Assembly (NCBI RefSeq): GCF_009687865.1
Contig: NZ_BLAE01000020.1
Location: forward strand, 62,001-126,000
Direction: 5' to 3'
Origin: Acrocarpospora macrocephala
GTDB lineage: Bacteria > Actinomycetota > Actinomycetes > Streptosporangiales > Streptosporangiaceae
Length of the DNA: 64,000 nt
The position numbers and the translations under genes are program-made. Under the pieces are notes generated by a model that was not told the DNA's origin, ran no database searches, and saw nothing but the letters and a program-made list of their open reading frames with translations. Below, piece by piece: positions 12,231 through 57,400 of this stretch (its first letter is position 1; the number at the start of each line of letters is the position of its first letter).

Positions 12231-12497
12231 TCACAGATCCTTGAGGCGGCCCAGCTCGCTTTCGATGAAGCCGAGAATGTCCTTGGTACTCGCCGATTCG
12301 AGCACTTCGGCGACTGTAATTTCACTAGTCTCCGTGCCGGTCTCACTCACCGTCGCCAGCAGGTGGCGCAGCCGGGTGACGATGCCGTTTCTCGCGACCT
12401 CGTTCAGCGCGTGGCCGGAAAGCGCCATCTCGAAGCGGTTGAGATCGGCCAGCAAGGACAGTTCCGTGGCCTTGTTCTCCCCGGGCGCGATTTCCGC
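12231..12497 (-). other. C-terminal docking segment of gene B
   Basis: Residues 16306-16393 follow ACP Ser 16268 and run from [16 protein letters not shown] to [14 protein letters not shown]. They have the same length and pattern as the gene A tail. The expected partner is the N-terminal coil of gene C. Confidence 0.85.
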
Positions 12498-33400: not shown

Positions 33401-36400
33401 GCAGCAACGGCTGGCCCTCCGGCCGGTCCTGACCGTAAGTCGCCAGCAGCGCCTGAGCCTCGATCGGGTCACCCAGCGTCGTCCCGGTACCGTGCGCCTC
33501 GACCGCGTCCACTCCAGCGGGAGACAGCCCGGCGCCGGCCAGGGCCTGCCGGATCACCCGCTGCTGCGACGGACCGTTCGGCGCAGTCAGCCCATTGGAC
33601 GCGCCGTCCTGGTTGACCGCCGACCCACGCACGATGGCGAGCACCTGGTGGCCGTTGCGGCGGGCGTCCGACAGCCGCTCCAGCAGCACCATGCCCACGC
33701 CCTCGGAATAGCTGGTGCCGTCCGCCGCGTCGGCGAAAGACTTGCTCCGGCCATCGGGCGACAGGCCTCCTTGGGTGCTGAAGTCGATGAACGCCAGCGG
33801 GGTGGCCATGACGGTCGCGCCACCGGCCAGTGCCAGATCGCATTCGCCCGAGCGCAGCGCCTGCGCCGCCATGTGCATCGCCACCAGCGACGACGAGCAC
33901 GCGGTGTCCACCGTCACCGCCGGGCCCTCCAACCCCAGCGTGTACGAGATACGGCCAGTCGCGACACTCGCGGCGGTACCGGTGCCGACGAAGCCCAGCA
34001 CCTCCGGCGGGAACTGGGCGTTCATCCCGTAGTCGTGGTAGAAGATGCCGGCGAACACCCCGGTACGGCTGCCCCGCAGTGAGGTCGGGTCCATGCCCGC
34101 CCGCTCGATCGCCTCCCAGGAGGTCTCCAGCAGCAACCGCTGCTGCGGATCCATCGCCAGCGCCTCACGCGGCGAAATGCCGAAGAAGCCAGGATCGAAC
34201 TGCGCGGCGCTCTCCAGGAAGCCGCCCTCGCGTACGTAGCTGGTGCCCCGATGCTCGGTATCCGGGTTGAACAACGCCGCCAGATCCCAGCCGCGCGTGG
34301 TCGGGAACTCACTGATCCCGTCCCCGCCCTCGGCCACCAACCGCCACAGATCCTCCGGAGAATGGATTTCACCCGGGAAATGGCAGGCCATACCCACGAT
34401 CACGATCGGGTCGTCGCTCAACGGCAGGGCGGGCGCGGGAATGATCGCGTCGGCGTGCTCGCCGAGCAGCTCGGCCAGCAGGAACTCCGCCAGCACGGTC
34501 GGCGTCGGGTAGTCGAACACCAGCGTCGCCGGCAACCGCAAACCCGTCACGCCGTTCAGCCGGTTCCGCAGCTCCACCGCGGTGAGGCTGTCGAAGCCCA
34601 GCTCACGGAACTCGCGCCGGACCTCCACCGTCTCGGGCGAGACATGGCCCAGCACCATGGCCACCTCGGTGCGCACCAGATCCAGCAGAACCTCGGCGCG
34701 TTCGGCCGCCCCCAGCGGAGCCAGCCGCTGCAGCAGCGTCGCCGCCACCACCGAACCGGACGCCGCCGACCGCCGGCCACTCCGCACCAGCCCGCGCAAC
34801 AACGGGGAGACCTCGCCTTGGGCGCGCAGCACCGCCAGCTCCAGCCGGAGCGGGATCACCACCGGCCGCGTCACCCGGCCGGCCGCGTCGAACAGCGCCA
34901 GGCCCTGTTCCACCGACAGCGGCGGCATGCCCGTCCGGGCGATCCGCCGCATGTCGGCCTCGCTCAGCGCGCTGGTCATGCCGGTGTCCTGGGTCCAGGC
35001 ACCCCAGGCCAGGGACAGCGCGGGCAGCCCTTCGGCCCGGCGCGACTGGGCCAAGGCGTTCAGGAACGTGTTCGCCGCCGCGTAGTTGCCCTGCCCGGGT
35101 GCTCCCATGACACCCGACAAGGACGAGTACAGGATGAACGCCGCCAGGTCCACGCCCCTGGTCAGCTCGTGCAGATGCCAGGCCGCGTCCACCTTCGGAC
35201 GCAACACCCTGCCCAGCCGCTCCGGCGTCAGCGACGAGATCGTCGCGTCCTCCAGGACACCGGCGGTGTGCACGACCGCGGTCAGCGGATGAGCGGCGTC
35301 GACACCGGCCAGCAGGGCCGCCACCTGGTCCCGATCCGCCATGTCGCAGGCGGCGATGGTCACGTGCGCGCCGTGCGCGGCCAGCTCCCGCTCCAGCTCG
35401 GCTGCCCCGGCCGCGTCCAGGCCACGGCGGCTGGTCAGCAGCAGGTGCCGTACGCCCCGCTCGGTCACCAGATGCCGGGCCAGGCTGCCCCCCAGACCAC
35501 CGGTGCCACCAGTGATCAGAACTGTCCCGTCCGGATCCCACGGCCGTTCCGGCTCCTCGGCCGGTGTCACCCGGGCCAGACGAGGCACCCGTACCGCGCC
35601 TTCACGCACCGCCGCCTGCGGCTCACCGGAGGCCAGCACCGCGGCCAGCGACGAGGAGGACAGCTCCGCGTCGACATCGACCAGTACGAACCGGCCCGGA
35701 TCCTCCCACTGCGCCGAACGCACCAGGCCCCACACCGCCGCAGCCGCCAGATCGGTGACCGCTTCACTCTCACTCGCGGCCACCGCGCCCCGCGTCACGA
35801 ACACCAGCCGCGAAGCCCTGAACCGCTCGTCGGCCAACCACTGCTGCAGCAGGTCGAGGATGTGGGCGACCAGCTCGTGCGTCGCCTCCGCCACGTTCCC
35901 GGCGTCGGCCGACCCGACGGTGACCATGACCACGTCGGGTGCCGAGTCCAGTGCGGCGAGTTCTCCGGTCAGCTCGACCACGCTCGGGACGGTCTCCGTG
36001 CCCACCGCCTCCGGCAGCGCGGTCCAGTCCAGCCCGAACAGCGAATCGCGCGCTACGCCGCCACCGCCCGCATCGGCGAACTGCTCGGGGGTGAACGGAC
36101 GCACGACCAACGAGCGCGCCGACAAGACCGGCGCTCCGGCCCGATCGGCCGCCGACAACGACACGGAGTCGTCACCGGACTTGGCCAGCCGGACGCGCAG
36201 CAGCGCGGCACCACTCGCGTGCAGGCACACCTCTTGCCAGGAGAAGGGCAGCAGGCCACCCTCCACCACATTCAACCCGGCGAAGCTGACCGCGTGCAGC
36301 GCCGCGTCCAGCAACGCCGGATGCACTCCGAACGCGCCCGCGTTCGACGCCGCCTGCTCGGGAAGGGCGACCTCGGCGAAGATCTCACCGCCGGGGCCGC

Positions 36401-39400
36401 TCCAGGCCGCCCGCAGTCCTCGGAACGCCGGGCCGTAGCCCAGCCCTCGGGAGGCCAGTTCGTCATACAGTCCATCCAGCTCGATCGCGGTCGCGCCGGC
36501 CGGAGGCCACACCTCCGTGTCGAAGTGCGCAACGCCCCGAGTGTCCGTGGCGAGCGTCCCGGTGGCGTGCCGTACCCACTGCGCCTCGTCGCCGGCCTGG
36601 GCCGGCCGGGAGAAGACGCTCAGGGTCCTGCGGCCGGTCTCCTCCGGCGCGCCCACCGCGATCTGGACCACGACCGCCTCGTCCTCGGCCAGCACCAGCG
36701 GCGCGGCCAGGGTCAGCTCCTCGACCAGGTCACAGCCGACCTGGTCACCCGCCCGGATCGCCAGCTCAAGGAACCCGGTGCCGGGGAAGAACACCATCCC
36801 GGCCACGGTGTGGTCGGCCAGCCAGGGATGCGTGGCGAGCGACAACCTGCCGGTCAGCACCACTCCGTCGGAGTCGGCCAGGCCCACCGCCGCGCCCAGG
36901 AGAGGATGCTTCGTCGCCGCCAGGCCCGCCGCCGTCACGTTCCCCGCACCGGCGCTCGCACTGCCGTCAGGCCAGAACCACTGGTGCTGGAAGGCATAGG
37001 TCGGCAGATCGACCCGGCGCCCACCCGGCAGCAGTGCCCGCCAGTCCACCGTCACACCGCGCACGAACAGCTCGGCGGCCGAGACCAGGACACGGTCCAG
37101 CCCGCCCTCGTCCCGGCGCAGCGTCCCGGCGATGACCGCGTCCACCGCGGCCTCGTCCACGCATTCCCCGATGCCGATCGTCAGCACCGGGTGCGGGCTC
37201 ACCTCGACGAACACGCGGTGGCGCTGCTCCAGCAGTTCCCTGATCGCCGGGGCGAAGGCCACCGTGTTGCGCAGGTTGTCACACCAGTAGGCCGCGTCGA
37301 GTTCCGGTCCCTCCAGCCACTGGCCGGTCACGGTTGACAGCATTGGCATCCGTACCGAACGCGGAGTCACCTCCGCCAGGACCTGGGCCAGCTCCGCACC
37401 GATCAGATCGACCTGGGCCGAGTGCGAGGCGTAGTCCACCGCGATACGCCGGACCCGCACCTCCTCAGCGGTCAGTCGCTCGACCACTTCCTCAATGGCC
37501 GCGACCTCACCGGCCACCACCACCGAGCGAGGGCCGTTGATGGCCGCGACCGAGATCCGCTCGTCCCAGACGGCCAGTCGCTCACGCACCTGCTCGACCG
37601 GCAACGGCACCGACGCCATCGCCCCGAGCCCGGCCAGCCGGTCGGCGATCAAGCGGCTACGCAACGCCACCACCCGCGCGCCGTCCTGCAACGACAGACC
37701 ACCCGCCACCACCGCAGCCGCGATCTCACCCTGCGAGTGACCGACCACGGCGTCGGGGCGGACGCCCAGGGATTCCCAGACCGCAGCCAGGGAAACCATC
37801 ATCGCGAACGACACGGGCTGGACCACATCCACCCGATCCAGCGACGGGGCGTCTTCGGTCTGGCGGATCACGTCCAGCAGCGACCAGTCCACGAACGGTT
37901 CAAGCGCCGCCGCGCACTCCGCCATCCGGCCCGCGAAGACCGGCGACTCCTCCAGCAGTCGCCCGCCCATACCGACCCACTGCGCCCCCTGACCAGGGAA
38001 CACCCACACCGACTTACCGGCGATGTCGGCCACACCCGAGACCACGCCCGTCGCCAATTCACCGGCACCGACCGCCGACAGGCCCGACAGCAGGCCGCCA
38101 CGATCACGCCCGACCACCACCGCACGGTGCTCGAACACCGACCGCGACACCACCAGCGAGGACCCCACGTCCACCGGGTCCAGATCGCCGGCCTCCACCT
38201 GCGCCGCCAGACGACGCGCCTGACCACGCAACGCCTCCGGAGTCTTCGCCGAGACCACCCACGGCACCGCACCCGGCGCCTGTTCCACCGACTCCGATAC
38301 TGAAGCCTCCGGCCCCTGCTCCAAGATCACGTGCGCGTTGGTGCCGCTGATCCCGAAGGAGGAGACACCGGCCCGGCGCGGGTGACCGTTCTTCTGCCAC
38401 TCCACCGGCTCGGTCAGCAGCTCCACCGCACCAGAGGCCCAGTCCACATGCGAGGACGGCGCATCGACGTGCAACGTCTTGGGCAGCACCCCATGCCGCA
38501 TGGCCAGCACCATCTTGATCACACCGGCGACGCCCGCGGCGGCCTGCGTGTGACCGATGTTCGACTTGATCGAACCCAGCAGCAACGGACGATCCTCGTC
38601 CCGATCCCGGCCATAGGTCGCCAGCAGCGCCTGCGCTTCGATCGGGTCACCCAGCGTCGTACCGGTGCCGTGCCCTTCAACCGCGTCCACATCAGCGGGC
38701 GCGAGCCCCGCCCCGGCCAGGGCCTTGCGGATCACCCGCCGCTGCGAAGGACCGTTCGGAGCGGTCAGACCGTTGGACGCGCCGTCCTGGTTGACCGCGG
38801 AACCCCGGACGATCGCCAGGACCTGGTGACCGTTGCGGCGCGCGTCCGACAGACGCTCCAGCACCAGCATGCCGACGCCCTCGGACCAGCCCGCGCCGTC
38901 GGCCGCGTCGGAGTAGGACTTGCACCTGCCGTCAGGGGCCAGGCCGCCCTGCCCCGTGAAGTCGATGAACGGCCCAGGAGTGGCCATCACCGTCACACCA
39001 CCGGCCAGCGCGAGCGAGCAGTCACCGCCGCGCAGCGCCTGCGCCGCGAGGTGCATCGCCACCAGTGACGACGAGCACGCGGTGTCCACCGTCACCGCCG
39101 GGCCCTCCAGACCCAGGGTGTAGGAGAGCCGGCCGGTGGCGACGCTGCCGGCGGTGCCGGTGCCCATGAAGCCCATCACGTCGGCGGGGAAGGCCGTGCT
39201 GTTCGCGTAGTCGTGGTACATGACACCGGCGAACACGCCCGTGTGGCTGCCCCGCAGCGAGACCGGGTCGATCCCGGTCCGCTCGATCGCCTCCCAGGTC
39301 ACCTCAAGCAGCAGCCGCTGCTGCGGGTCCATCGCCAGCGCCTCACGCGGCGAGATCCCGAAGAACCCAGGGTCGAACTCGCCGGCCTCGTGCAGGAAGC

Positions 39401-42400
39401 CACCCGCCTGGACGTACTTGACGGCTTGGCCCTCGGCTTGAGAGAGCGCGTCACGGTGCCAGCCGCGTGTCGTCGGGAAGGGGGAGATGGCGTCCGCGCC
39501 CTCGGTGACCAGCCGCCACAGGTCCTCGGGAGAGTTGACCCCGCCCGGATAGCGGCACGCCATGCCCACGATCACGATCGGGTCGTCCGCCACCGGCAGG
39601 ATGACCGTGGGGATGACCGCGTCGGCGTCCTCACCGAGCAGCTCGGCCAGCAGGAACTCCGCGAGCAGCGTCGGCGTCGGGTAGTCGAACACCAGCGTCG
39701 CAGGCAACCGCAGGCCGGTCGCGCCGTTCAGCCGGTTACGCAGCTCCACGGCCGTGAGCGAGTCGAAGCCCAGCTCGCGGAACTCCCGCCGCACCTCCAC
39801 CGTGCCGGGGGAGACGTGCCCGAGCACGACGGCCACCTCGGTGCGCACCAGATCCAGCAGGACCTCGGCGCGCTCGGCCGCTCCCAGCGGAGCCAGCCGC
39901 TGCAGCAACGTCGCGGCCACCACAGAACCGGACGCCGCCGACCGCCTCCCTCCCCGCACCAGCCCGCGCAGCAGCGCCGGGATCTCGCCCTGCGTCCGCA
40001 ATGCCGACGGCTCAAGCCGGACCGGGATGAGCAGCGCGTGCTCCAGCGTGGTGGCGGCCTCGAACAACGCCAGACCCTGTTCTGGCGACAGCGGCGGCAT
40101 GCCCGCCCGTGCCATTCTGCGCATTTCGGCGTCGTCGAGTGTGCCGGTCATCCCGGCGTCCTGGCTCCACGCGCCCCAGGCCAGCGAGAGCGCGGGCAGT
40201 CCCGCCGCCCGCCGCTGCTGGGCCAGCGCGTCCAGGAAGACGTTGGCCGCCGCGTAGTTGCCCTGCCCGGCGTTGCCCATCACCCCGGCCAGCGAGGAGA
40301 ACAGCACGAACGCCGCGAGGTCCAGGCCCTGGGTCAGCTCGTGCAGGTGCCAGGCGGCGTCCACCTTCGGCCGCAGCACCGACTCCAGCCGCTCCGCCGT
40401 CAGCGCGGGAATCGTCCCGTCATCCAGCACACCCGCCGTGTGAACGACCGCGGTCAGCGGATGCTCGGCATCGATACCGGCCAGCAGCGCCACCACCTGA
40501 TCCCGATCCGCCACATCGCACGCCGCGATCTCGACGTCGACGCCGTGCGCGATCAGCTCGGCCCGCAGCTCCACCGCACCCGCGGCGTCCGAACCACGGC
40601 GACTGGCCAGCAGCAGACGCCGCACCCCACGCTCGGCCACCACATGCCGCGCGAACAACGCCCCAAGACCACCGGTGCCGCCGGTGATCAGCACCGTCCC
40701 CTCCGGATCCCACGAGCGCGCACCGCCCTCGCCAGGATCAGAGGCGCGTGTCACCCGCGCCAGCCGCGGCACCCGTACGCCATCCTCACGTACCGCTACC
40801 TGCGGCTCGCCCGACGCCGACGCGGCGGCCAGCACTCCCGGCAGGGCCGGCAGCGACTGCCCGGCCACGTCGACCAGGACGAACCGGCCTGGTTCCTCCC
40901 ACTGCGCGGACCGCACCAGTCCCCACACAGCGGCGGCCGCCAGGTCCGTCACGGTTTCGCTCTCGCTCGCCGCGACGGCACCCGTGGTCACGAACACCAG
41001 CCGGGAGCGGAGACAGCGATCATCGGCCAGCCAGGCACGCAGCAGGTTCAGCGCCGCGGCGGTCAACTCGTGAACCGATGCGACAACGTCGCCGTGCGCC
41101 GCGGAGCCGACCGTAACGGTCACCACCTCCGGCACCGTCTCCAGCGCCGCCAGGTCCGATGCCGGAGTCAAGGTCAGCTCGACCGAATCGAGATCGGCGG
41201 CGGCCGCCGGCCCGTCGGGCAACGCCGTCCAGGCCAGCTGGAACAGCGAGTCCCGGAGCGGGTCGCGACCACTGCCCCAGGCAGCCTGGTCGGCCGTGAC
41301 CGGACGCAGCACCAGCGACCGCGCGGAGAGCACCGGTTCCCCTGCGGCGTCCACCGCGATCACCGAGACCGTGTCGCCTCCGGTCCTGTCCAGCCGGACC
41401 CGCAGCACCGACGCGCCACCGGCGTGCAGGCACACCTCACCCCAGGAGAACGGCAACCGGCCGTCGGCATCGTCAAGACCGGCGAAGGTCACGGCGTGCA
41501 GCGCCGCGTCCAGCAGCGCCGGATGCATTCCGAACGAAGCCGCGCTCGACTGCGCCTGCTCGGGCAGGACGACGTCGGCGAACACCTCGCCGTCAGCACC
41601 TCGCCAGGCGGCCCGCAGTCCCTGGAACACCGGCCCGTAGTGGAAGCCGCCCGCGGCGAACCGGTCGTACAAGTCGTCCATCTGGATGGGTGTGGCGTCC
41701 TGCGGCGGCCACACCGCCGTGTCGAAGCCGGCGGCGCCGGGCCCGGCCGCGGCCAGCACACCGGTGGCATGCCGTACCCATGGTTCCTCGTCGGCGGCTT
41801 CGGCCGGACGGGCGTAGATGCTCAGGTTGCGGCGGCCGGACTCGGCCGCCGAGGCCACCCACACCTGCACCGCGACGGCGTCCCGCTCGCCGAGCACCAG
41901 GGGCGTGGTCAGGGTCAGCTCCTCGACCAGGTCACAGCCGACCTGGTCACCCGCCCTGATCGCCAGTTCGAGGAACCCGGTGCCCGGGAAGATGACCGTG
42001 CCGCCGACCGCGTGGTCGGCCAGCCACGGATGCGACCGCAGCGACAACCGCCCGGTCAGCAGCACCCCCGCCGAGTCGGCCAGCCCGACCGCGACACCCA
42101 GCAGTGGGTGCCTTGCGGCGGCCAGCCCCGCGGCCGCCACGTTCCCCGCCTGGGTAGCGCTGCCGTCGGACCAGAAACGCTGCCGCTGGAACGCGTACGT
42201 CGGCATGTCGATCCGGCGCCCGCCCTGGAGCACCGCCTGCCAGTCCACCGGCACGCCGCGCACGTGCAGCTGGGCAAGCGCCGCCATGATCGCGGTCTGC
42301 TCGTCCCGATCCTTGCGCAGGACCGGCACCAGCACCGGATCGGCGTCGGAGCTGTGGGCCAGGATGTCCTTGGCCATCGCGGTCAGTACGCCGTCCGGCC

Positions 42401-45400
42401 CGAGCTCCAGGTAGGCGGTCACTCCCTGCCGGTGCAGCACCCGCACGGCGTCGGCGAAGCGCACCGCGCCCCGCACCTGCTCCACCCAGTAGTCCGGCGA
42501 GCACAGCTGCTCGGCCGTGGCCTGCTCCCCGGTCAGGGTGGACACGATCGGGATACGCGGCGGGTTGTAGGTGAGCCTGCCGGCCACCGTGCGGAAGTCC
42601 GCCAGCATCGGGTCCATCAACGGCGAATGGAACGCGTGCGATACCCGCAGCCGCCGGGTCTTGCGCCCCCGCTCCGCCAGCGTGCCCGCGACTTCGAGTA
42701 CGGCCTGCTCAGCCCCGGAGATCACCACCGCGGCCGGACCGTTGACGGCGGCGATCGACACCTCGTTCTCACGACCGGCCAGGAGCTCGGCGACCTCCTC
42801 CTCGGAGGTCTGCACCGCCACCATCGCACCATCGGCGGGAAGGGCCTGCATCAGCCGTGCCCTGGCCGCGACCAGCGCGCACGCGTCCCGAAGCGACAGC
42901 ACCCCGGCCACATGCGCCGCGGTGATCTCCCCGATCGAGTGCCCGGCCAGCACGTCCGGTCGCACACCCCACGACTCCACCAGCCGGAACAGGGCGGTCT
43001 CCACCGCGAACAGCGCCGGCTGCGCCCATCCGGTCTGGTCCAGCGCCTCCGTACCCGGCTCGGCGAACAGCACCTCCCGCAGCGACCCATCGAGCAGCGG
43101 GTCCAGCTCGGCGATCGCCTCGTCCAGCGCCTGCGCGAAGACCGGGAAGCGGTCGTACAGCTCCCGGCCCATCCCCGCCCGCTGGCTCCCCTGACCAGTG
43201 AACAACACCGCCGGCTTCGGCTCGGCCGCAGCCAGCCCGTGCAGCACACCCGCGCTCGGGCGGTCTTCGGCCAGTGCCCGCAGGCCGGCGACCGCGCCCG
43301 CGAGGTCGGCGGCCACCACGGCCGCCCGATACTCGAACGCCGAGCGCGTGCTGGCCTGCGAGCACGCCACATCGCCGAGCCGCAGGTCAGGCTCACCGTC
43401 CAGGTACGACGCCAGCCGCCCGGCCTGCGCGCGCAACGCCTCCGCCGACCGGCCGGAAACCAGGACAGGCACGGCTCCGGCCGACGCGGACGGACCGTCC
43501 TCGGATTCCTGGTCGCCGGGCTCGGCGTCCGGTGCTTCGACCCGCTCGATGATCAGGTGTGCGTTGGTGCCGCTGATCCCGAACGACGACACCGCCGCAC
43601 GGCGAGGGTGACCGTTCTTCGGCCACTCGGCCGGCTCGGTCAGCAGCTCCACCGCACCGGAGGCCCAGTCCACGTGCGAGGACGGCTCGTCCACGTGCAG
43701 CGTCCTGGGCAGCATCCCGTGCCGCATGGCCATGACCATCTTGATCACACCGGCCACACCCGCCGCGGCCTGGGTGTGCCCGATGTTCGATTTGATCGAC
43801 CCCAGCAGCAGCGGACGGTCCTCCGGCCTGCCCTGCCCGTAGGTCGCCAACAGCGCCTGCGCCTCGATCGGGTCACCCAGCGCCGTGCCCGTGCCGTGGC
43901 CCTCCACCACGTCGACGTCAGCGGGAGCCAGCCCCGCGCCGGCCAGCGCCTGGCGGATCACCCGCTGCTGCGAAGGACCGTTCGGCGCGGTCAGCCCGTT
44001 CGACGCGCCGTCCTGGTTGACCGCCGACCCGCGCATGACGGCCAGCACCTGGTGACCGTTGCGCCGCGCGTCCGACAGCCGCTCCAGCACCACCAAGCCC
44101 ACACCTTCGGACCAACTGGTGCCGTCGGCGGCATCCGAATAGGACTTGCACCGCCCATCGGCGGCCAGCCCGCCCTGGGCGCTGAACTCCATGATCCCCA
44201 TCGGCGAGGCGACCACGGTCACCCCGCCCGCCAGCGCCAGCGCGCACTCACCCGAGCGCAGCGCCTGCGCCGCCAGGTGCATCGCCACCAGCGACGACGA
44301 ACACGCGGTGTCCACCGTCACCGCCGGGCCCTCAAGCCCCAAGGTGTAGGACAGCCGGCCCGAGAGCACGCTCCCCGACTGGCCCGTCACCATGAAGCCG
44401 CGGGCCTCATCTGACGGGATGTAGCCGGACGCGCTGGCGCCGACGTACACCCCGGTGGAGCTGCCGCGCAGCGACAGCGGGTCGATCCCGGCGCGCTCGA
44501 CCGCCTCCCAGGTGGTCTCCAGCAGCACCCGCTGCTGCGGGTCCATGGCGAGCGCCTCACGCGGCGAGATCCCGAAGAACCCGGCGTCGAACTCCGCGAC
44601 GTCGGGCATGAACCCGCCCTGGAAGTCCAGCTCGCCGTTCACCTGCCAGCCCCGGTCGAGCGGCAGCGGGGAGACGGCGTCGCGCCCCTCCGTGACGAGC
44701 TGCCACAGATCCTCCGGAGAGTGCACTCCGCCGGGGTAGCGGCACGCCATGCCCACGATCACGATCGGATCGTCGGCTACCGACGCGATCGGCGTCGCGG
44801 CGATGACATCGCCGTGCTCGCCCAGCAGCTCGGCCAGCAGGAACTCCGCCAGCACCACGGGGGTCGGGTAGTCGAACACCAGGGTGGCGGGCAGCCGCAG
44901 CCCGGTCGCGGCGTTCAGCCGGTTGCGCAGTTCCACCGCGGTGAGCGAGTCGAAGCCCAGTTCGCGGAACTCCCGGCGCACCTCCAGCATCTGCGGCGAG
45001 GTGTGCCCGAGCACCGTGGCCGCCTGGGCCCGGACCAGGTCGATCACCAGGCGGCTCCGGTCGGCGGGGGCCAGCCCAGCCAGTTGCCGCAGCAGCACCT
45101 GGTCGGCGCCCGATACCGGGGCCGCCGCCGTACGGCGGGTGCTCCGCACCAGCGAGCGGAGCAGCGGCGGGACCTCACCGAGCGCCTGCAACGCCGGCAG
45201 GTTGAGCCGGACCGGCGCGACCACCGGCGTGCCGCAGCCCAGGACCGCGTCGAAGAGTGCCAGGCCCTCGGCGAAGGAGAACAGGTGGAACCCCGCGGCC
45301 GCCAGCCGGCGGAGGTCGGTCTCGCTGAGCTCGCCGGCCATGCCGGCGTCCGCCGCCCACGGACCCCACACCAGGGACAGGCCCGGCATGCCCTGGGCGC

Positions 45401-48400
45401 GGCGGTGCTGAGCCAGCGCGTCCAGGTAGGCGTTGGCCGCCGCGTAGCCGCCCAGCCCCGGGCCGCCGACCAGCCCGGCCATTGAGGAGTACAGGACGAA
45501 GGCGGCCAGGTCGAGGTCCCGCGTCAGCTCGTGGAGGTGCCAGGCGCCATCGGCCTTGGGCCCGAACACGGTGGCCAGCCGGCGCTCGTCCAGCGACGGG
45601 ATCATGCCGTCGTCGCGTACGCCCGCGGTGTGGACGACCGCGGTGAGCGGGTGCTCCGCGGGCACGCCGGCGAGCAGCTCCGCCACCTGATCCCGATCGG
45701 CCAGGTCGCAGGCGGCGATGGTGACCTCGGCGCCGTGGGCGATCAGTTCGGCCGCCAGTTCCACCGCGCCCGGGGCGTCCATGCCCCTGCGGCCGGCCAG
45801 CAGCAGATGCCGGACCCCGTGCTCGGCCACCAGATGCCGGGCCAGGCTGCTGCCCAGGCCGCCGGTGCCACCCGTGATCAGCACGGTGCCGCCGAGATCC
45901 AGCCGCGGTGTGGCGTCTCCCCCTGGCGTCAGGCGGACCAGCCGGGGCACGCGGGCCACGTGGCCGCGAATCGCCACCTGGGGCTCGCCGCAGGCCAGCG
46001 CCTCAGGCAGCGCCGTCAGCGCGGTCTCCCGCTCGTCCACATCGACCAGCAGGAAGCGGTCGGGGTTCTCGGCCTGCGCGGCGCGGACCAGACCCCAGAC
46101 GGCCGCCGCCGCCGGATCCGTGACCGCCTCGTCTTCCGTGCCGGCGACCGCGCCCCTGGTGACCAGCACCAGCCTGGATTCGGTGAACCGCTCATCCGCC
46201 AGCCACTGCCGCAGGAGTTCCAGGACCCGGCCGGTGACCTCTTGTGCCGCCGCCGCGCCGACCGCCATCACGGGCGAGGTGATCTCGACGGCCACGACGT
46301 CCGGCACCCGGTCCGGCGAGGAGAGGCCGGACGCGGCCCAGCGCAGCTCGTCCAGTCCGGACCGGTTCAGTTCGGACCAGTCCAGCTCGACGCAGTCCAG
46401 CCCGGCCATCGCGTCCGTCGGGGAGACGACCGTCGGCGCGACCGCCCACTCCAGCGCGAACAGCGCGTCCCGCTCCAGCCCTTGAGCGCCGGAGACGAGC
46501 ATCTGGTCGGCGGACACCGGGCGGAACACCAGCGAGTCCGCCGTCAGCACCGGCGCGCCCTCGGCGTCCACCGCCGCCAGCGACACCGAACCGCTCCCGG
46601 TCCTGGCCAGCCGTACCCGCAACGCCGATGCGCCGCCCGCGTGCAGGCACACGCCGGCCCAGGAGAACAGCAGCCGCCCCTGGCCCGGCTCCACGAGGTC
46701 CAGGAACGAGGCCGGCTGCAACGCCGCGTCGAGGAGGGCGGGATGCAGGCCGAACGAGCCGGCGTCGCCGACCTCCTCGGGCACCGCGACCTCGGCGAAG
46801 ATCTCCCCGTCCCGCTGCCAGGCCGCCCGCAGTCCCTTGAAGGTCGGCCCGTAGCGCACGCCGCCCTCGGCCAGCTCGTCGTACAGCCCGTCCAGCGCGA
46901 TCGGCGTCGCGCCCGCGGGCGGCCACACGGTCGTGTCGAACCGTGCCGTACGCGCGCCGACGGCCAGCACGCCGGCCGCGTGCCGCACCCAGGGCTGGTC
47001 CGGCGTGTCGGCCGGTCGGGCGTAGATGGCCAGGTTCCTGCGGCCTGTTTCGTCGGACGCGCTCACCACCACCTGGACGGCGACGGCGTCGTCCGTGCCG
47101 AGCACCAGCGGGGCGGCCAGGGTGAGCTCTTCCACCCGGTCGCAGCCGACCTGGTCACCGGCCCGGATCGCCAGCTCGAGGAACCCGGTGCCGGCGAACA
47201 GGGCCGTGCCGGCCACCGCGTGATCGGCCAGCCACGGGTGTGTGCGTACCGACATCAGGCCGGTGAGCAGCGCGCCGTCGGAGTCGGCGAGCCCGACGGC
47301 GGCGCCCAGCAGCGGATGCCCCGCCGCGGCGAGGCCGAGCCCGCGGGCGTCGGCGATCCGCATCCCGCTCGGCCAGAACCTGTGGTGCTGGAAGGCGTAG
47401 GTGGGCAGGTCGATCCGGCGTCCGCCGGGTAGTACCGCCTGCCAGTCCACCGCCACGCCGCGGACGAACAGCTCGGCCGCCGAGAGCAGGACCCGGTCCA
47501 GCCCGTCCTCGTCACGGCGCAAGGTCCCGGCGACCACCGCGGTCACGCCCGCCTGGTCCACCGCCTGTTCGATCCCCAGCGTCAGCAGCGGATGCGGGCC
47601 GACCTCGACGAACGCCCGGTACCGCTCCTCCAGCAGCCGCTCGATCGCCGGCGCGAACTCCACGGTGCGCCGCACGTTCTCGTACCAGTAGCCGGTGTCC
47701 AGTTCGGTGCCGTCCAGCCATTGGCCGGTCGCCGTCGACAGCATCGGGATCCGCGCGGTACGGGGCGACACGTCCGCCAGCTCCGCCAGCAGTTCGTCCC
47801 GGAGGGCGTCGACCTGCGGCGAGTGCGCGGCGAAGTCGGCTCCGGCCAGCTGCCAGCGCATCACCCCGTCGGCCGACAAGCGGCGCTCCAGCACCCGCAT
47901 GGCCTCCGGGTCACCGGCCACGGTCACCACCCGGGGCCCGTTGACCGCCGCGATCGAGATCCGGTCCAGCAGATCAGCGGCGGCCAATGTCTCGCGAACC
48001 TGCTCCGCCGGAGCCATCACCGACAGCATCACCCCGCGCCCGGCCAGCCGATCGGCGATCAGGCGGCTGCGCAAGGCCACCACCCGGGCGCCGTCCTGGA
48101 GAGACAGGCCACCTGCGACCACCGCGGCGGCGATCTCGCCTTGAGAGTGGCCAACCACGGCGTCGGGGCGGACGCCCAGCGACTCCCACACCGCCGCCAA
48201 AGAGACCATCACCGCGAACGACACCGGCTGGACCACATCCACCCGATCCAGCCCGTCGGCCTGGCGAACCACGTCCAGCAGCGACCAGTCCACGAACGGC
48301 TCCAACGCCGCCGCGCACTCCGCCATCCGCCCCGCGAAGACCGGCGACTCCTCAAGGAGACGCCTGCCCATGCCGACCCATTGGGCTCCTTGGCCTGGGA

Positions 48401-51400
48401 ACACCCACGCCGACTTCCCGTCGACATCGGCCACACCCGCGACCACGCGAGCCGTCGGCTCACCGGCCTCGACCGCGGACAGGCCCGCCAGCAGTTCCTG
48501 ACGGTCGCGTCCGACCACCACCGCGCGGTGCTCGAACAACGCCCGCGACGCCACCAGCGAGAACGCCGTATCGAGATCGCTGTGTGCGTCGAGGTGGGCG
48601 CTCAGCCGACGCGCCTGCGCCGACAACGCCTTACCCGTACGGCCCGAGATCACCCAGGGCACTACCCCCGCAGGCTCGGCGACCGCCGGTTCGGCGACCT
48701 CCTCCGGCCCCTGCTCCAGGATCATGTGCGCGTTGGTGCCGCTGATGCCGAACGACGACACGGCGGCCCTGCGCGGGTGATCGGTCCGCGGCCACTCCCG
48801 CTGCTCGGTCAGCACTTCGACCGCGCCGGAGTCCCAGTCCACGTGCGAGGACAGCGCGCCCACGTGCAGCGTCTCGGGCAGCACGCCATGCCGCATGGCC
48901 ATGACCATCTTGATCACACCTGCGACGCCTGCGGCGGCCTGGGTGTGCCCGATGTTCGACTTGACCGACCCCAGTAGCAGCGGCTGATCGCGATCCTGAC
49001 CATAGGTGGCCAGCAGGGCCTGCGCCTCGATCGGGTCACCCAGCACCGTACCCGTACCGTGGGCCTCGACCGCGTCCACCTCGGACGGCGACAGACCCGC
49101 GACGGCGAGAGCCTTCCGGATCACCCGCCGTTGCGAGGGGCCGTTCGGTGCCGTCAGGCCGTTGGACGCGCCGTCCTGGTTGATCGCCGACCCGCGCACG
49201 ATCGCCAGCACCTGATGCCCGTGGCGCTGAGCATCCGACAGCCGCTCCAGCATCACCAGGCCGACACCCTCGGACCACCCGATGCCGTCCGCCGAGTCGG
49301 AGAACGCCTTGCACCGGGCATCCGGCGCCAGCCCGCCCTGCTCCCCGAGCTCCCCGTACCCCGCGAGAGTCGAGATGACGGTGACGCCGCCCGCCACCGC
49401 GAGCGAGCATTCCCCGTTGCGCAGGGCCTGCGCCGCCATGTGGATGGTCACCAGCGACGACGAGCACGCGGTGTCCACCGTGACCGCCGGGCCCTCAAGA
49501 CCGAAGGTGTAGGAGATCCGGCCGGAGGCCACACTGGCCAGCATGCCGGTCATGATGTGGCCGCGGGACTCCTCCCCTGGCAGGTAACCCGAGCCGACGG
49601 AACCGATGAAGACGCCGGTGTCGCTGCCCCGCAACGAGTCCGCGTCGACGCCCGCGCGCTCGAGGACCTCCCAGGTCGTCTCCAGCAGCAGGCGCTGCTG
49701 CGGGTCCATCGCCAGCGCCTCACGCGGCGAGATCCGGAAGAACTCCGCGTCGAACTCGGGCGCGTCGAAGATGAACCCGCCCTTCAGGTCGCCGTGGCTC
49801 TGCCAGCCACGGTCGGTCGGGAGCGGGGTGATGGCGTCCTGGCCCTCGATGACCAGCCGCCACAGGTCCTCCGGAGAGTTCACCCCGCCCGGGAAGCGGC
49901 AGGCCATCGAGACGACGACGATGGGGTCGTCCGACGTCGAGGCCGTGACCACCGGCAGGATGGCGTCGCCGTGCGCGCCGAGCACCTCGCTCAACAGGTA
50001 CTCGCCGAGCACGGTGGGGGTGGGGTAGTCGAAGACGACGGTGGAGGACAGGCGCAGCCCGGTGGCGGCGTTGAGCCGGTTGCGCAACTCGATCGCGGTC
50101 AGCGAGTCGAAGCCCAGCTCGCGGAACTCACGGCGCCCCTGCACCGCCTCCAGCGAAGGATGCCCGAGGACGGCGGCGGCCTGCGCCCGGACCAGATCGA
50201 CGACGAACCGGGCGCGGTCGGCCTGCGCCAGACCGGCCAGCTGCCGCAGCAGCACCCCTTCTCCGGCGGCGGGCGCCGACGCCGCCGTACGGCGGGTGCT
50301 CTTCACCAGCCCGCGCAGCAGCGGCGGCACCAGCTGAGCGGGCATCGCCGGCATGTTCAGCCGTACGGGGACCACGAGCGGGGAATCCGAGCCGATGGCC
50401 GTGTCGAACAGCGCCAGTCCGTGCTCGGTGGTGATGGGCGGCAGACCGGCGGCGGTCATCCGCTGGACGTCGGCCTGCGACATGCCCCCGGTCATTCCGG
50501 TGGCCTGGGCCCACAATCCCCAGGGAAGTGACAAGCCCGGCAACCCTTGCGCCTGGCGTTGGGCCATCAGCGCGTCCACCCAGGCGTTGGCCGCCGCGTA
50601 GTTGCCCTGACCGGCGCCGCCCAGCAGCCCGGCCAGCGAGGAGAACACCACGAACGCGGCCAGATCCAGGTCCTGGGTCAGCTCGTGCAGGTGCCAGGCG
50701 GCGTCCACCTTCGGCCGCAGCACCGACTCCAGCCGCTCCGGCGTCAGCGAGGCGATGGTTCCGTCATCGAGGATTCCGGCCGCGTGGATCACCGCGGTCA
50801 GCGGGTGCTCGGCGCCGATCCCGGCCAGCAAGCCGGCCACCGCGTCCCGATCGGCCATGTCGCAGGCGGCGATGGTCACGTGCGCGCCTCGCGCGGTCAG
50901 TTCCCGCGCCAGCTCACGTGCGCCGGCCGCGTCCGGGCCTCTTCGGCTGACCAGCAGCAGGTGTCGTACGTCGTGCTCGGCCACCAGATGCCGCGCGAAC
51001 ACCGCGCCCAGACCGCCCGTACCACCGGTGATCAACACCGTGCCCTCGGGGTTCCACCGCCGGGGCATCGTCAGGACGATCTTGCCGGTGTGCCGGGCCT
51101 GGCTCATGAACCGGAACGCCTCACGGCCCCGCCGCACATCCCAGGCCGTGACCGGTAGCGGCCGCACTTCACCGGCCGCGAACAGTTCCATGAGCTCGGC
51201 CAGGATCTGGCGCAGCCGCTCGGGTCCGGCGTCCAGGATGTCGAACCAGTGGTACGTCAGCCCAGGGAACTGGTCCTGGTCGCGGATGTCCAGTTTGCCC
51301 ATCTCGATGAACCGGCCGCCCGGGCGCAGCAACCGCGCGGAAGCGTCGATGAAGTCGCCGGTCAGCGAGTTCAGGACCACATCGATCCCCCGCCCGCTGA

Positions 51401-54400
51401 ACCGCTCCTCGAACTCCAGGGTGCGGGAGGAAGCGATGTGATCATCCGGGATGCCCAGCGAGCGGAGGACGTCCCACTTGGCCGGGCTGGCCGTGGCGAA
51501 CACCTCCACCCCCAGGCGCTGGGCCAGCTGGATCGCGGCCATACCGGTCCCCCCGGTGCCCGCGTGCACCAGCAGCGACTCGCCCGGCCGCAACCCGGCC
51601 AGATCCATCAGCCCGTAATAGGACGTCAGGAACGACACCGGGATCGTCGCCGCCTGCTCGAAGGAGACTCCATCGGGGATCTTGGTCACCCCGCCGGCAC
51701 CGGTGACCACCACTGGGCCGAAGCCGCCCTCGGTTATGCCGACCACCCGGTCACCCGGGCGCAGGTCGTCGACCTCGGGACCGACCTCCAGCACCACGCC
51801 GGCGGCCTCGCCGCCCATCAGGCCGACCTTGTCCTGGAACCAGCCCAGCGCGTTCAACCCGTCCAGCAGGTCACGGAAGTTCATCCCCGCCGCGTGCACC
51901 GCCAGGCGCACCTGACCGGCCTCCAACGGCCCGGCCGCCTGCGGAAATGGGAGCAGCTCCAGCGCGTCCAGGCTGCCCTTGGCCCGGCTGCCCAGCCGCC
52001 ACGGCACCCCACCACCCGGAGGCACCAGCCCCGCCCCCGACGCCAGCGGCGCCAGTCGCGGCACTCGCACCTCACCGTGCCGGACCGCCGCCTGCGGCTC
52101 GCCCGAGGCCATGAGCGCGGCCAATACCGCCGGCAGGGAGGACTCCTGGCCGTCCACGTCGACCAGGACGAAACGCCCCGGATTCTCCGACTGCGCCGAC
52201 CGCACCAGACCCCACACCGCCGCCGCAGCCAGATCGGTGATCTCCTCACCCGCACCGGCCGCCACCGCGCCCCGCGTCACGAACACCAGCCGCGAGCTCT
52301 CCAGCCGCTCGTCGGCAAGCCACCCCTGCAGCAGGCCCAGCACCGCAGCGGTCACTTCATGCGCGCAGGTCACCGCGTCCACGGCCGGATCGGTCACGAT
52401 CCCGGCCAGCACCACACCCGGCACCGGCCCCGCCTCGGCCAACGCCGACAGATCCGGATAAACCTCGACCTGATCCCTGGCAAGACCCAGCGTGTCCAGA
52501 CCGACCACCACCACCGGCACCGGGTCGGCCACCGGAGCGTCGGAAAGCGCGGTCCATTCCAGCCGGAACAGCCCCTCCCCCAGCGTCGCCTGGCCGCCAC
52601 CCGCGGCGGCGAGCTGATCCGGCGAGAACGGCCGCAACACCAGCGACCGCGCCGACAGCACCGGCTCCCCGGCGGCGTCCACCGCCGTCAGCGTGACCGA
52701 GTCGGCAGCGGTCCGGACCAGCCGCACGCGCAGCATCGCCGCGCCTGCGGCCTGCAGGCTCACCCCACCCCAGGAGAACGGCAGCCTGCCGCCCTCGGAA
52801 TCGTCCAGCCCGGCGAAAGCCACCGCGTGCAACGCCGCATCCAGCAACGCCGGGTGCAACCCGAACCCGCCGGCGCTTGACTGCGTCTGCTCGGGCAGTG
52901 CGACCTCGGCGAACACCTCACCGCCGGCGCCGCGCCAGGCCGCTCGCAGCCCCTGGAACACCGGGCCGTATTCGAACCCGCTGGTGGAGAGCCCTTCGTA
53001 GAGGCCGTCGAGGTCGATCGCGGTCGCCCCCTGCGGGGGCCACACCGCCGCGTCGAACGGCGCAGCGGGGGACGCGGCAGCCATGGTGGGAGTGCCGGCG
53101 GTCAGAGTGCCGGTGGCATGCCGTACCCACGGCACATCGGCGGCGGCCTCCGCCGACCGGGCGTACACGTTCACGCTCCGGTGGCCCGTCTCCTGCGCGG
53201 CGCCCACCCACACCTGCACCGCTACCGCGTCGTCCACACCCAGCACCAGCGGAGCGGTCAGGGTCAGCTCCTCGACCAGGTCACAGCCGACCTGGTCACC
53301 GGCCCGGATCGCCAACTCCAGCAACCCGGTACCCGGGAAGATCACCGTGCCGGCCACCGCATGATCGGCCAGCCACGGATGCGACGACAGCGACAACCGG
53401 CCCGTCAGCAACACCCCGTCGGAATCGGCCAGGCCCACCGCCGCGCCCAGCAGCGGATGACCCGCTGTCGCCAACCCCGCCGCGGCCACGTTCCCTATCT
53501 GGGAGCCTGCCCCGACGGGCCAGTACCACTGGTGCTTGAAGGCGTAGGTCGGCAGGTCCACCCGGCGTCCACCGGGTAGTACCGCCCGCCAGTCCACCGC
53601 CACGCCGCGCACGAACAGCTCGGCCGCCGAGACCAGAACCCGGTCCAGCCCGCCGCCGTCCCGGCGCAGCGTGCCGGCGATCACCGCATCTACTGCGGCC
53701 TCGTCCACGCATTCGCCGATGCCGATCGTCAGCACCGGATGCGGGCTCACCTCGACGAACGCCCGATACCGCTGCTCCAGCAGTTCCCCGATCGCCGGGG
53801 CGAAGTTGACCGTGTTGCGCAGGTTGTCACACCAATACGCCGCGTCGAGTTCCGTCCCCTCCAGCCACTGCCCGGTCACCGTCGACAGCATCGGCACCCG
53901 CACCGCACGCCCAGCCACCTCCGCCAGGACCTGGGCCAGTTCCGCACCGATCAGATCGACCTGAGCCGAATGTGAGGCATAGTCCACCGCGATACGGCGA
54001 ACCCGCACCCCGTCCTCGGTCAGACGCTCCACCAGCTCATCGACGGCCTGCACCTCACCGGCCACCACCACCGAGCGAGGGCCGTTGATCGCCGCGACCG
54101 ACACCCGGCCGTCCCAGGACGACAGCCGCTCACGCACCTGCTCGACCGGCAACGACACCGACGCCATCGCCCCGAGCCCGGCCAACTGGTCGGCGATCAG
54201 ACGGCTGCGCAGGGCCACGACTCGTGCGCCGTCCTGCAGCGACAGGCCACCCGCGACCACCGCGGCCGCGATCTCGCCCTGCGAATGCCCGACCACCGCG
54301 TCGGGACGGACCCCCAGCGACTCCCAGACGGCGGCCAAGGAGACCATCACCGCGAACGACACCGGCTGGACGACATCCACCCGATCCAGCGACGGGGCGT

Positions 54401-57400
54401 CTTCGGCCTGGCGGATCACATCCAGCAGCGACCACTCCACGAACGGCTCCAACGCCGCCGCGCACTCCGCCATCCGGCCCGCGAAGACCGGCGACTCCTC
54501 AAGCAGGGCAGCGCCCATCCCCGCCCACTGGGCTCCCTGACCAGGGAACACCCACACCGACTTCCCGACGACATCGGCCACACCCGAGACGACGCCACCG
54601 GCCGCGGGCTCATCCGAGGCAAGCACACCCAGGCCCGCCACCAGCTCGCCGCGGTCCCCGCCGACCACCACCGCACGGTGCTCGAACACCGACCGCGACA
54701 CCACCAGCGAAAACGCCGTATCGACCGGGTCCAGGTCATCGGCCTCCACCTGCGCCGCCAGACGACGCGCCTGACCACGCAACGACTCCTCGGTCTTCGC
54801 CGACACCACCCACGGCACCACACCACCGGCAGGCTCTTCCACCTCCGGCCGCGTGACACCTTCCGGTCCTTGCTCCAAGATCACGTGGGCGTTGGTGCCG
54901 CTGATCCCGAACGACGACACCGCCGCCCGGCGCGGATGGCCGTTCTTCTGCCACTCCACCGGCTCGGTCAGCAGCTCCACCGCGCCAGAGGCCCAGTCCA
55001 CGTGCGAGGACGGCGCATCGACATGCAACGTCTTGGGCAGCACCCCATGCCGCATGGCCAGCACCATCTTGATCACACCGGCGACGCCCGCGGCGGCCTG
55101 GGTGTGACCGATGTTCGACTTGATCGAACCCAGCAGCAACGGACGGTCCTCGTCCCGATCCTGACCGTAGATGGCCAGCAGCGCCTGCGCCTCGATCGGG
55201 TCGCCCAGCGTCGTCCCCGTACCGTGGCCTTCGACCGCGTCCACCTCGGACGGCGAGAGCCCGGCACCGGCCAGCGCCTGCCGGATCACCCGCTGCTGCG
55301 AAGGACCGTTCGGAGCGGTCAACCCGTTGGACGCGCCATCCTGGTTGACCGCCGAGCCACGGACGATCGCCAGCACCTGGTGCCCGTTGCGCTGAGCGTC
55401 CGACAGCCGCTCCAGCACCAGGATGCCCACACCCTCGGACCAGCTCACCCCGTCGGCCGCGTCGGAGTAGGACTTGCACCTGCCGTCGCCGGCCAGCCCG
55501 CCCTGGGCGCTGAAATCGATGAACGGCCCGGGGTTGGCCATCACGGTCACGCCACCGGCCAGCGCGAGCGAGCAGTCGCCGCCGCGCAGCGCCTGCGCTG
55601 CCAGGTGCATCGCCACCAGCGACGACGAGCAGGCGGTGTCCACCGTCACCGCCGGGCCCTCCAGACCCAGCGTGTACGAAACCCGGCCGGTCGCGACGCT
55701 GCCCGTGCTACCGGTACCGACGAACCCCATCACTTCTGGCGGGAACGACACGCTGTTCGCGTAGTCGTGATACATCAGTCCGGCGAACACCCCGGTACGG
55801 CTGCCGCGCAACGAGACCGGGTCGATCCCCGCCCGCTCGATCGCCTCCCAGGACGTCTCCAGCAGCAGCCGCTGCTGCGGATCCATCGCCAGCGCCTCAT
55901 GGGGCGAGATCCCGAAGAACCCGGGGTCGAACTCCCCCGCCTCGTGCAGGAAGCCGGCTTCGCGCACATAGCTCGTGCCCCGGCGGTCCCGATCCGAGCT
56001 GTAGAAGGCTCCCAGATCCCAGCCGCGCGTGGTCGGGAAGGGCGAGATCCCGTCCCCGCCCTCAGTCACCAACCGCCACAGATCCTCCGGAGAGGCGACC
56101 CCGCCCGGATAGCGGCAGGCCATGCCCACGATCACGATCGGGTCGTCGGCCACCGGCCGGGCCTCGGCGGGAACCACCATGTCGGCGTGCTCGCCGAGCA
56201 GCTCGGCCAGCAGGAACTCCGCCAGCAGCATCGGCGTGGGGTAGTCGAACACCAGCGTGGCCGGCAACCGCAGCCCGGTCGTACCGTTCAGCCGGTTGCG
56301 AAGGTCCACCGAGGTCAGCGAGTCGAAGCCCAGCTCGCGGAACTCACGACGCACCTCCACCGTCTCCGGCGAGAGGTGCCCCAGCACCATGGCCACCTCG
56401 GTCCGTACCAGATCCACCAGGACCTCGGCGCGCTCGGCCGCCCCCAGCCGCGCCAGCCGCTGCAGCAGCGTGCTGGCCGTCGCCGACTTTCCGATGGCGG
56501 ACCGGCGCCTTCCCCGCACCAGCTTCCGCAACAGTGGCGGTACTTCGCCCAGCGTGCGCAGCACCGCCAGATCCAGCCGGACGGGTGCCACGACCGGTTC
56601 GCCGGAACGGAGCGCCGACTCGAACAAAGCGACGCCCTGTTCCGGTGCGAGAGGCGGAGTGCCGGCACGGGCCAGCCGCGCCATCTCGCCATCGCTCAAG
56701 GTGCCGGTCATCCCGCTGTCCTGAGCCCACGCACCCCAGGCGAGTGACAGCCCGGGCAATCCGGCAGCCTGGCGGTGCTGGGTCAGCGCGTCGAGGAAGG
56801 AGTTGGCCGCGGCATAGTTGCCCTGGCCGGGAGCTCCGATCAGGCCCGCCGCCGACGAGAACACGACGAACTCGGCCAGATCAAGATCCGCGGTGAGCTC
56901 GTGCAGGTGCCAGGCGGCGTCCACCTTCGGCCGCAGTACCGGCTCCAGCCGTTCCGGCGTCAGCGAGGCGATGGTCCCGTCGTCCAGCACACCCGCGGTG
57001 TGGATCACCGCGGTCAGCGGATGATCGGCGTCCACCTCGGACAGCAAGGCCGCCACCTGGTCCCGGTCGGTCACGTCACACGCCACGACTGTGACCTCGA
57101 CACCGTGGGCGATCAGCTCGGCCTGCAGCTCCACCGCGCCCGGAGCGTCCAGGCCCCTCCGGCTGACCAGCAGCAGGTGCCGAACACCGCGTTCGACCAC
57201 CACATGCCGGGCGAACAGCACACCCAGGCCACCGGTCCCGCCGGTGATCAACACTGTGCCGTCCGGATCCCACGGCCGTTCGACCTCGGGGCCGGGCACC
57301 ACCCGTGCCAGCCGGGCCACCCGCACCTCACCACCGCGCACCGCCACCTGCGGCTCGCCGGAGGCGAGCACCCCGGCCAGCACCGACTCGGACAGCTCCC

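Follow-up and report, generated by a model that had tools for sequence, protein, structure and literature searches.

Some acyltransferase (AT) domains of polyketide synthases (PKSs) take their extender unit from an acyl carrier protein (ACP) rather than from coenzyme A, and the AT of the third ansamitocin PKS module, which we take to accept methoxymalonyl-ACP, is the nearest solved example to the domain described here. In methoxymalonyl-ACP ATs a hydrophobic M-x-W (MXW) is described as replacing R-x-R (RXR) ahead of the histidine motif (Haydock, PMC4207774), and the histidine motif FAAH has already been linked to an AT predicted to use methoxymalonyl (PMC8944477); for these and all other papers given by PMC number, we draw on excerpts of the text. 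The window, that is, the whole 64,000-nucleotide stretch from Acrocarpospora macrocephala that was analysed, is C20:62001-126000, on contig C20 of a 12.1 Mb genome (G000). It contains gene C (12231..61412, reverse strand, like every feature placed below by window position), an open reading frame of 16,393 amino acids (aa) that encodes a nine-module type I PKS with nine ketosynthase (KS), nine AT and nine ACP motifs. The AT of module 3 in this gene is a hybrid, in which a methylmalonyl-type frame (the N-terminal half with GHSQGE, and the domain end) holds a block of the MXW...FA[AG]H type. Judged from its sequence and setting, this AT very probably loads methoxymalonyl from a stand-alone ACP and not methylmalonyl from CoA.

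A hybrid acyltransferase in module 3

The domain (47451..48407) belongs to the Acyl_transf_1 family (PF00698, 304.3 bits; structure model mean pLDDT 84.6), with the serine of GHSQG and the lid histidine of FAAH both in place. We compared its DNA, in windows of 15 codons, with that of ten sister methylmalonyl-type (YASH) ATs from genes B to E. Identity to the best sister was 0.87-1.00 for windows starting at residues 4322-4449, fell to 0.51-0.80 for starts at 4459-4579 (where the sisters share 0.78-0.94 among themselves), and rose through 0.71-0.89 (4589-4619) to 0.91-0.96 (4629-4669); the inter-domain linkers beyond the AT are more variable, between sisters as well. We also scanned for change points across about residues 4326-4678, using the 253 columns that are identical in all ten sisters; module 3 deviates at 39 of them, and the best block lies at residues 4459-4636 (47505..48038), with 37 mismatches in 118 columns inside and 2 in 135 outside. 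None of 1000 permutations was as extreme, and chance is rejected on that ground.

On our reading of the structure model, the block of about 178 residues would comprise the small ferredoxin-like subdomain and the C-terminal half of the AT core, its 3' limit falling after the core's last short strand and before the next helix in the model's secondary structure. The nucleophile motif GHSQGE (residues 4421-4426; 48135..48152, by motif scan) remains in the sister-type part, and the N-terminal flank (4332-4456) is 98% identical to that of sister module 8. The sequence-only reading had taken the AT to be nearly the same as its methylmalonyl neighbours through GHSQGE, which the DNA identities of 0.87-1.00 bear out, and had put the switch at about 4458-4632, almost exactly at the change-point limits. 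It had also reported FAAH at 4527-4530 in place of YASH or HAFH, correctly in both motif and position, and had proposed a natural subdomain swap within the AT; the change-point result and recurrence in three other genomes confirm the hybrid. Its description of the switched part as unrelated was too strong, since the segment is still AT sequence, 59-61% identical to the neighbouring ATs over 191 aa.

Motif and structural kinship of the block

Within the block, M-R-W (residues 4518-4520; 47853..47861, by alignment) replaces the R-x-R carrier-recognition motif, and FAAH (4527-4530; 47823..47834, by motif scan and alignment) replaces YASH and holds the catalytic histidine. The arrangement is therefore MRW(X)6FAAH, against RXR(X)5YASH in CoA-type ATs, a pattern that module 3 lacks; MXW stands where RXR would be, and the spacing of six residues, not five, matches the ansamitocin AT. 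Among the 31 readable ATs on C20 the motif is unique to module 3, and no second AT with it was found in genome G000. The best match of the segment among solved structures is the ansamitocin third-module AT, at 177 bits; 8jpu, which we take to be the ethylmalonyl AT of tylosin module 5, scores lower, at 140 bits.

The putative methoxymalonyl-ACP gene set

A search of the genome for FkbH found it in two places, one of them on C20. There, at C20:177911-181960, lie genes for an O-methyltransferase (OMT; PF01596), FkbH, an acyl-CoA dehydrogenase, an ACP and a 3-hydroxyacyl-CoA dehydrogenase, an fkbG/H/I/J/K-type set in the same cluster and on the same contig as the module 3 AT. The set is upstream of PKS gene A and on the same strand, apart from the OMT gene, which is on the opposite strand, convergent to fkbH and outside the operon. 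The distance from FAAH to FkbH is about 69 kb in G000; G106 and G340, two of the three related genomes that also carry the module, have about 71 and 72 kb. In the third, G127, they fall on two contigs whose remaining stretches, in fitting direction, would sum to about 70 kb if the two contigs are adjacent. The five genes are 81-97% identical in these three genomes, with the OMT beside fkbH in each, and 56-67% identical in one stretch of Actinosynnema pretiosum (L222). Over the genome, crotonyl-CoA reductase (TIGR01751) exceeded the family cut-off once, on C10, and never on C20, where the cluster runs off one contig end and relative to which C10 is not placed. The sequence-only reading had suggested looking for either a methoxymalonyl-ACP gene set or a crotonyl-CoA carboxylase/reductase; the former is present on C20, and none of the latter passes the cut-off there.

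These genes suggest a route to the extender. FkbH-, FkbJ-, FkbK-, FkbI- and FkbG-type proteins would make glyceryl-, hydroxymalonyl- and then methoxymalonyl-ACP, which would use the hydrophobic M-x-W patch of the small subdomain (R-x-R in CoA-type ATs) as its docking site. The methoxymalonyl unit would pass to the catalytic serine and on to the ACP of module 3, leaving a single alpha-methoxy carbon in the polyketide chain.

We then asked how MXW ATs and FkbH are distributed, using the best 80 named loci kept by a genome scan among the matches listed. [ML]xW together with FA[AG]H occurs in 14 of the 80 (with LCW or LAW in L078, L083 and L143), which represent 13 genomes, L129 lying on the same contig as L075. 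Fifty loci were taken into a neighbour test, namely all MXW loci except L129 and 37 hand-chosen controls (36 after L109 was left out), on control contigs of at least 70 kb except L112 (15 kb). FkbH is present in 13/13 MXW genomes and in 23/35 control genomes (p 0.012, one-sided). With same-contig status judged by hand from contig sizes and coordinates, seven of 13 MXW loci (L070, L071, L073, L077, L083, L098, L137) share their contig with FkbH at distances of up to about 131 kb, and four of 36 controls (L100, L117, L142, L148) have it on theirs within 150 kb. The Fisher p is 0.004 for loci, and both p values treat rows as independent when they are related by descent. Of the other MXW loci, L072 and L075 are on long contigs without FkbH, and L078, L079, L082 and L143 are on contigs of 17-94 kb. 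We fetched seven fkb stretches, which come from six of the MXW genomes: all of them show FkbH, FkbI, FkbJ and FkbK, and five show the OMT (both from A. pretiosum included), with no OMT match in L223 and L225.

Trees of the two halves

Five of the 80 loci had no GHSQG in the stretch read and were left out of the trees (L082, which has an MXW-FAGH motif, L108, L111, L127 and L147). The first tree of the segment, made by a quick method from 112 rows reduced to 109 by removal of three that were more than 97% alike to a retained row, placed module 3 within an 11-row set made up entirely of MXW ATs when all columns were used (support 97). A more careful tree of the core (4460-4588, all columns), based on 61 hand-chosen rows of the 112, as were the later trees, joined the 16 MXW rows, A. 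pretiosum L137 included, in one clade (99/86) and rejected grouping of the module 3 block with its own neighbours (p 0.025). For the N-terminal flank (4332-4456), it is the MXW clade that was rejected (p 8e-7). Since the all-column block tree and the flank tree differ in this way, the two halves of the AT appear to have different closest kin, with the kinship of the block leaning heavily on the motif columns.

Weighing the extender

The assignment of methoxymalonyl-ACP follows from MRW(X)6FAAH, the match to the ansamitocin AT, the fkb set with no crotonyl-CoA reductase over the cut-off on C20, and the all-column trees. Several points weigh against it. Without the motif columns, the 16 MXW rows of the core tree need two changes, and both the MXW clade (p 0.41) and the own-neighbour grouping (p 0.16) are tolerated; module 3 shares one side of a branch (100/82) with the outgroup and ten more of the MXW rows. 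A quick motif-free tree of 4458-4628 put module 3 with its own neighbours (97), a constrained MXW tree being 18 lnL higher and the own-neighbour grouping having p 0.47 in the same test. Motif-free trees thus do not resolve the block between the MXW ATs and its own neighbours; in the tree proposed as a check by the sequence-only reading, all columns together place the block among MXW rather than methylmalonyl ATs. FAAH also occurs without MXW in L030 and L031, and because of these two we dropped FAAH alone as diagnostic. From the literature, the predicted methoxymalonyl AT of tetromadurin has YASH, and the selectivity motifs of such ATs are called poorly defined (PMC7489565), while methoxymalonyl and methylmalonyl ATs of bafilomycin are reported to show no significant difference (PMC3679948).

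The first alternative is that the AT still uses methylmalonyl-CoA or malonyl-CoA, the block being no more than neutral variation or a remnant of recombination. The methylmalonyl type of GHSQG and of the N-terminal half speaks for this, and the motif-free trees leave room for it, but R-x-R is lost and M-x-W gained, 37 of 118 sister-invariant columns have changed, the block has a dN/dS of 0.23 in G127, 0.18 in G106 and 0.25 in G340, and the syntenic methoxymalonyl set would have no other AT with the motif to serve among those found in the genome. We therefore consider this alternative very unlikely.

Equally improbable, in our view, is a second alternative, in which the AT uses hydroxymalonyl-ACP and the OMT acts later or elsewhere. 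Hydrophobic MXW-like motifs have been proposed for ACP-linked extenders generally, and ZmaA takes hydroxymalonyl-ACP, but ZmaA has GYSFG with GAAH (PMC4207774), and module 3 has GHSQG with FAAH. The position of the OMT gene, convergent to fkbH rather than in the operon, and the missing OMT match in two of the seven fkb stretches (L223 and L225) would suit this alternative; against it, all three related genomes have the OMT next to fkbH, and the five other fetched stretches contain it as well.

Ethylmalonyl- or other alkylmalonyl-CoA is the least credible extender and is not supported: motifs other than YASH and HAFH are found in such ATs, and the genome does have its one reductase-family protein on C10, but C20 has none over the cut-off, the TAGH and GAGH rows (L112, L141, L081, L091, L110), whose motifs are of the ethylmalonyl kind, keep R-x-R and are placed apart from the block in the tree, and the segment scores lower with tylosin module 5 than with the ansamitocin AT. 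Methoxymalonyl-ACP is thus the likely extender for one position of a giant polyketide, which narrows the unusual extender that the sequence-only reading had suggested for this module; motif, gene set and all-column tree all support that suggestion.

Recurrence and origin of the block

We surveyed 345 genomes of the order, G000 being the window's own, among the matches listed by E-value, with nine candidates scored per genome. The whole module, about 5 kb of DNA, recurs at 97.5% identity in G127, 95.1% in G106 and 86.9% in G340, and assembly error is therefore an unlikely explanation. Listed matches of at least 85% were confined to these four genomes, with two each in G106 and G340. Among the matches listed for the 80 loci of the genome scan, from which the records nearest G000 may be left out, none was closer than 55%, and all 345 matching records of a plasmid collection were below 60% identity.

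From the block boundaries, we infer that the hybrid arose by recombination or gene conversion among otherwise near-alike modules. There is about an even chance that the 178-residue block is a mobile natural specificity cassette, sufficient to make a methoxymalonyl-ACP AT out of one for methylmalonyl-CoA. If so, swapping the small subdomain and the C-terminal core half would alone convert specificity, and the block would be mobile between modules. The boundaries offer a naturally selected exchange pair for changing both extender and carrier (CoA to ACP), with the sister modules as built-in controls. Engineered hybrid PKSs frequently lose activity at their junctions, and natural junctions kept in species of two genera are therefore directly testable designs.

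A second block copy, about 85% identical, lies in the terminal module of another PKS locus in G106 (C107, ~51000-54740; L215) and G340 (C1, ~7390800-7394770; L214). By eye, that module runs KS, an eroded AT (GHSGGE), ACP, a further AT that is a hybrid of FAAH type, and an end resembling a thioesterase. The stretch with its eroded AT and ACP turned up in two of seven genomes searched, and not in G000 or G127; the single FkbH of G340 is 0.9 Mb from the locus.

Module 3 and the surrounding cluster

Module 3, called B3 in the sequence-only reading, spans 44700..50060 (approximate limits, from Pfam and a motif scan) in the order KS-AT-DH-KR-ACP, DH and KR being dehydratase and ketoreductase. Pfam matches, from a query that started within the KS, were ketoacyl-synt, Acyl_transf_1, PKS_DH_N, PS-DH, KR and PP-binding, and the motif scan found no enoylreductase motif. 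Dehydration may be impaired, because alanine replaces the proline of HxxxGxxxxP in the DH (47178-47231, residues ~4727-4745); the proline is present in seven other modules of gene C, module 8 being unmatched by the scan. The KR has RDD, the other KRs LDD or similar.

Elsewhere on C20, gene G opens with a KSQ-type loading module (VDTGQSSS) and gene F ends, by eye, in AT-ACP-thioesterase (C20:13263-22559 and 31925-40402), which suggests an assembly line that starts at gene G, passes beyond the contig end and returns with gene A. Glycosylation of the product is probable, since sugar and tailoring genes lie at C20:22867-31908, 146876-149462 and 181954-183069; they include a GDP-mannose 4,6-dehydratase family protein (PF16363 match, slightly below the TIGR01472 cut-off) and, by eye, a dTDP-glucose dehydratase, an aminotransferase, a C-methyltransferase, two glycosyltransferases and a P450. 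A second FkbK/J/I/H-like set, on C32 of G000 (33635-36794; L213), is 38-47% identical to that on C20. A PKS lies beside it; over the initial 56 kb of C32, the ATs of this PKS carry YASH, YAAH or HAFH, in some cases together with GYSLGE, and none has MXW.

Comparison with known systems

An open-access literature search with hybrid-acyltransferase or subdomain-swap terms gave no match, and work may be in print elsewhere. The ansamitocin third-module AT (6j0u, 6l3m, 6l3n) resembles that of module 3 in having LRW six residues before FAGH, together with GHSQG, and in a fold match over 411 residues. It differs in FAGH for FAAH, in an identity of about 55% over the segment, and in an N-terminal flank unlike that of the window's modules. 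The A. pretiosum locus L137, whose identity to the 6l3m segment is 94.6%, falls in the segment clade of module 3; its contig also carries FkbG/H/I/J/K-type sets, at distances of about 71 and 47 kb.

The concanamycin methoxymalonyl-ACP ATs likewise have a hydrophobic M-x-W for R-x-R ahead of the histidine motif, but as MXW(X)5YASH, in contrast to MRW(X)6FAAH (PMC4207774). FAAH is shared with AT24 of the hexaene cluster of Amycolatopsis lexingtonensis, whose methoxymalonyl specificity is likewise a prediction (PMC8944477), and a locus (L073) in the related A. eburnea has MRW(X)6FAAH itself, at 51% identity to module 3 over the segment and with FkbH about 131 kb off on the same contig. The mycolactone (PMC2569948) and azalomycin F (PMC9899208) PKSs also keep the modules of one line near-identical, and in mycolactone AT specificity has been altered by recombination as well; there, acetate and propionate ATs are exchanged (PMC2569948), whereas here about half an AT is exchanged along with the carrier type. 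The module 3 AT joins the already known MXW-type ATs, and its use lies in the sharp natural boundaries of the exchange.
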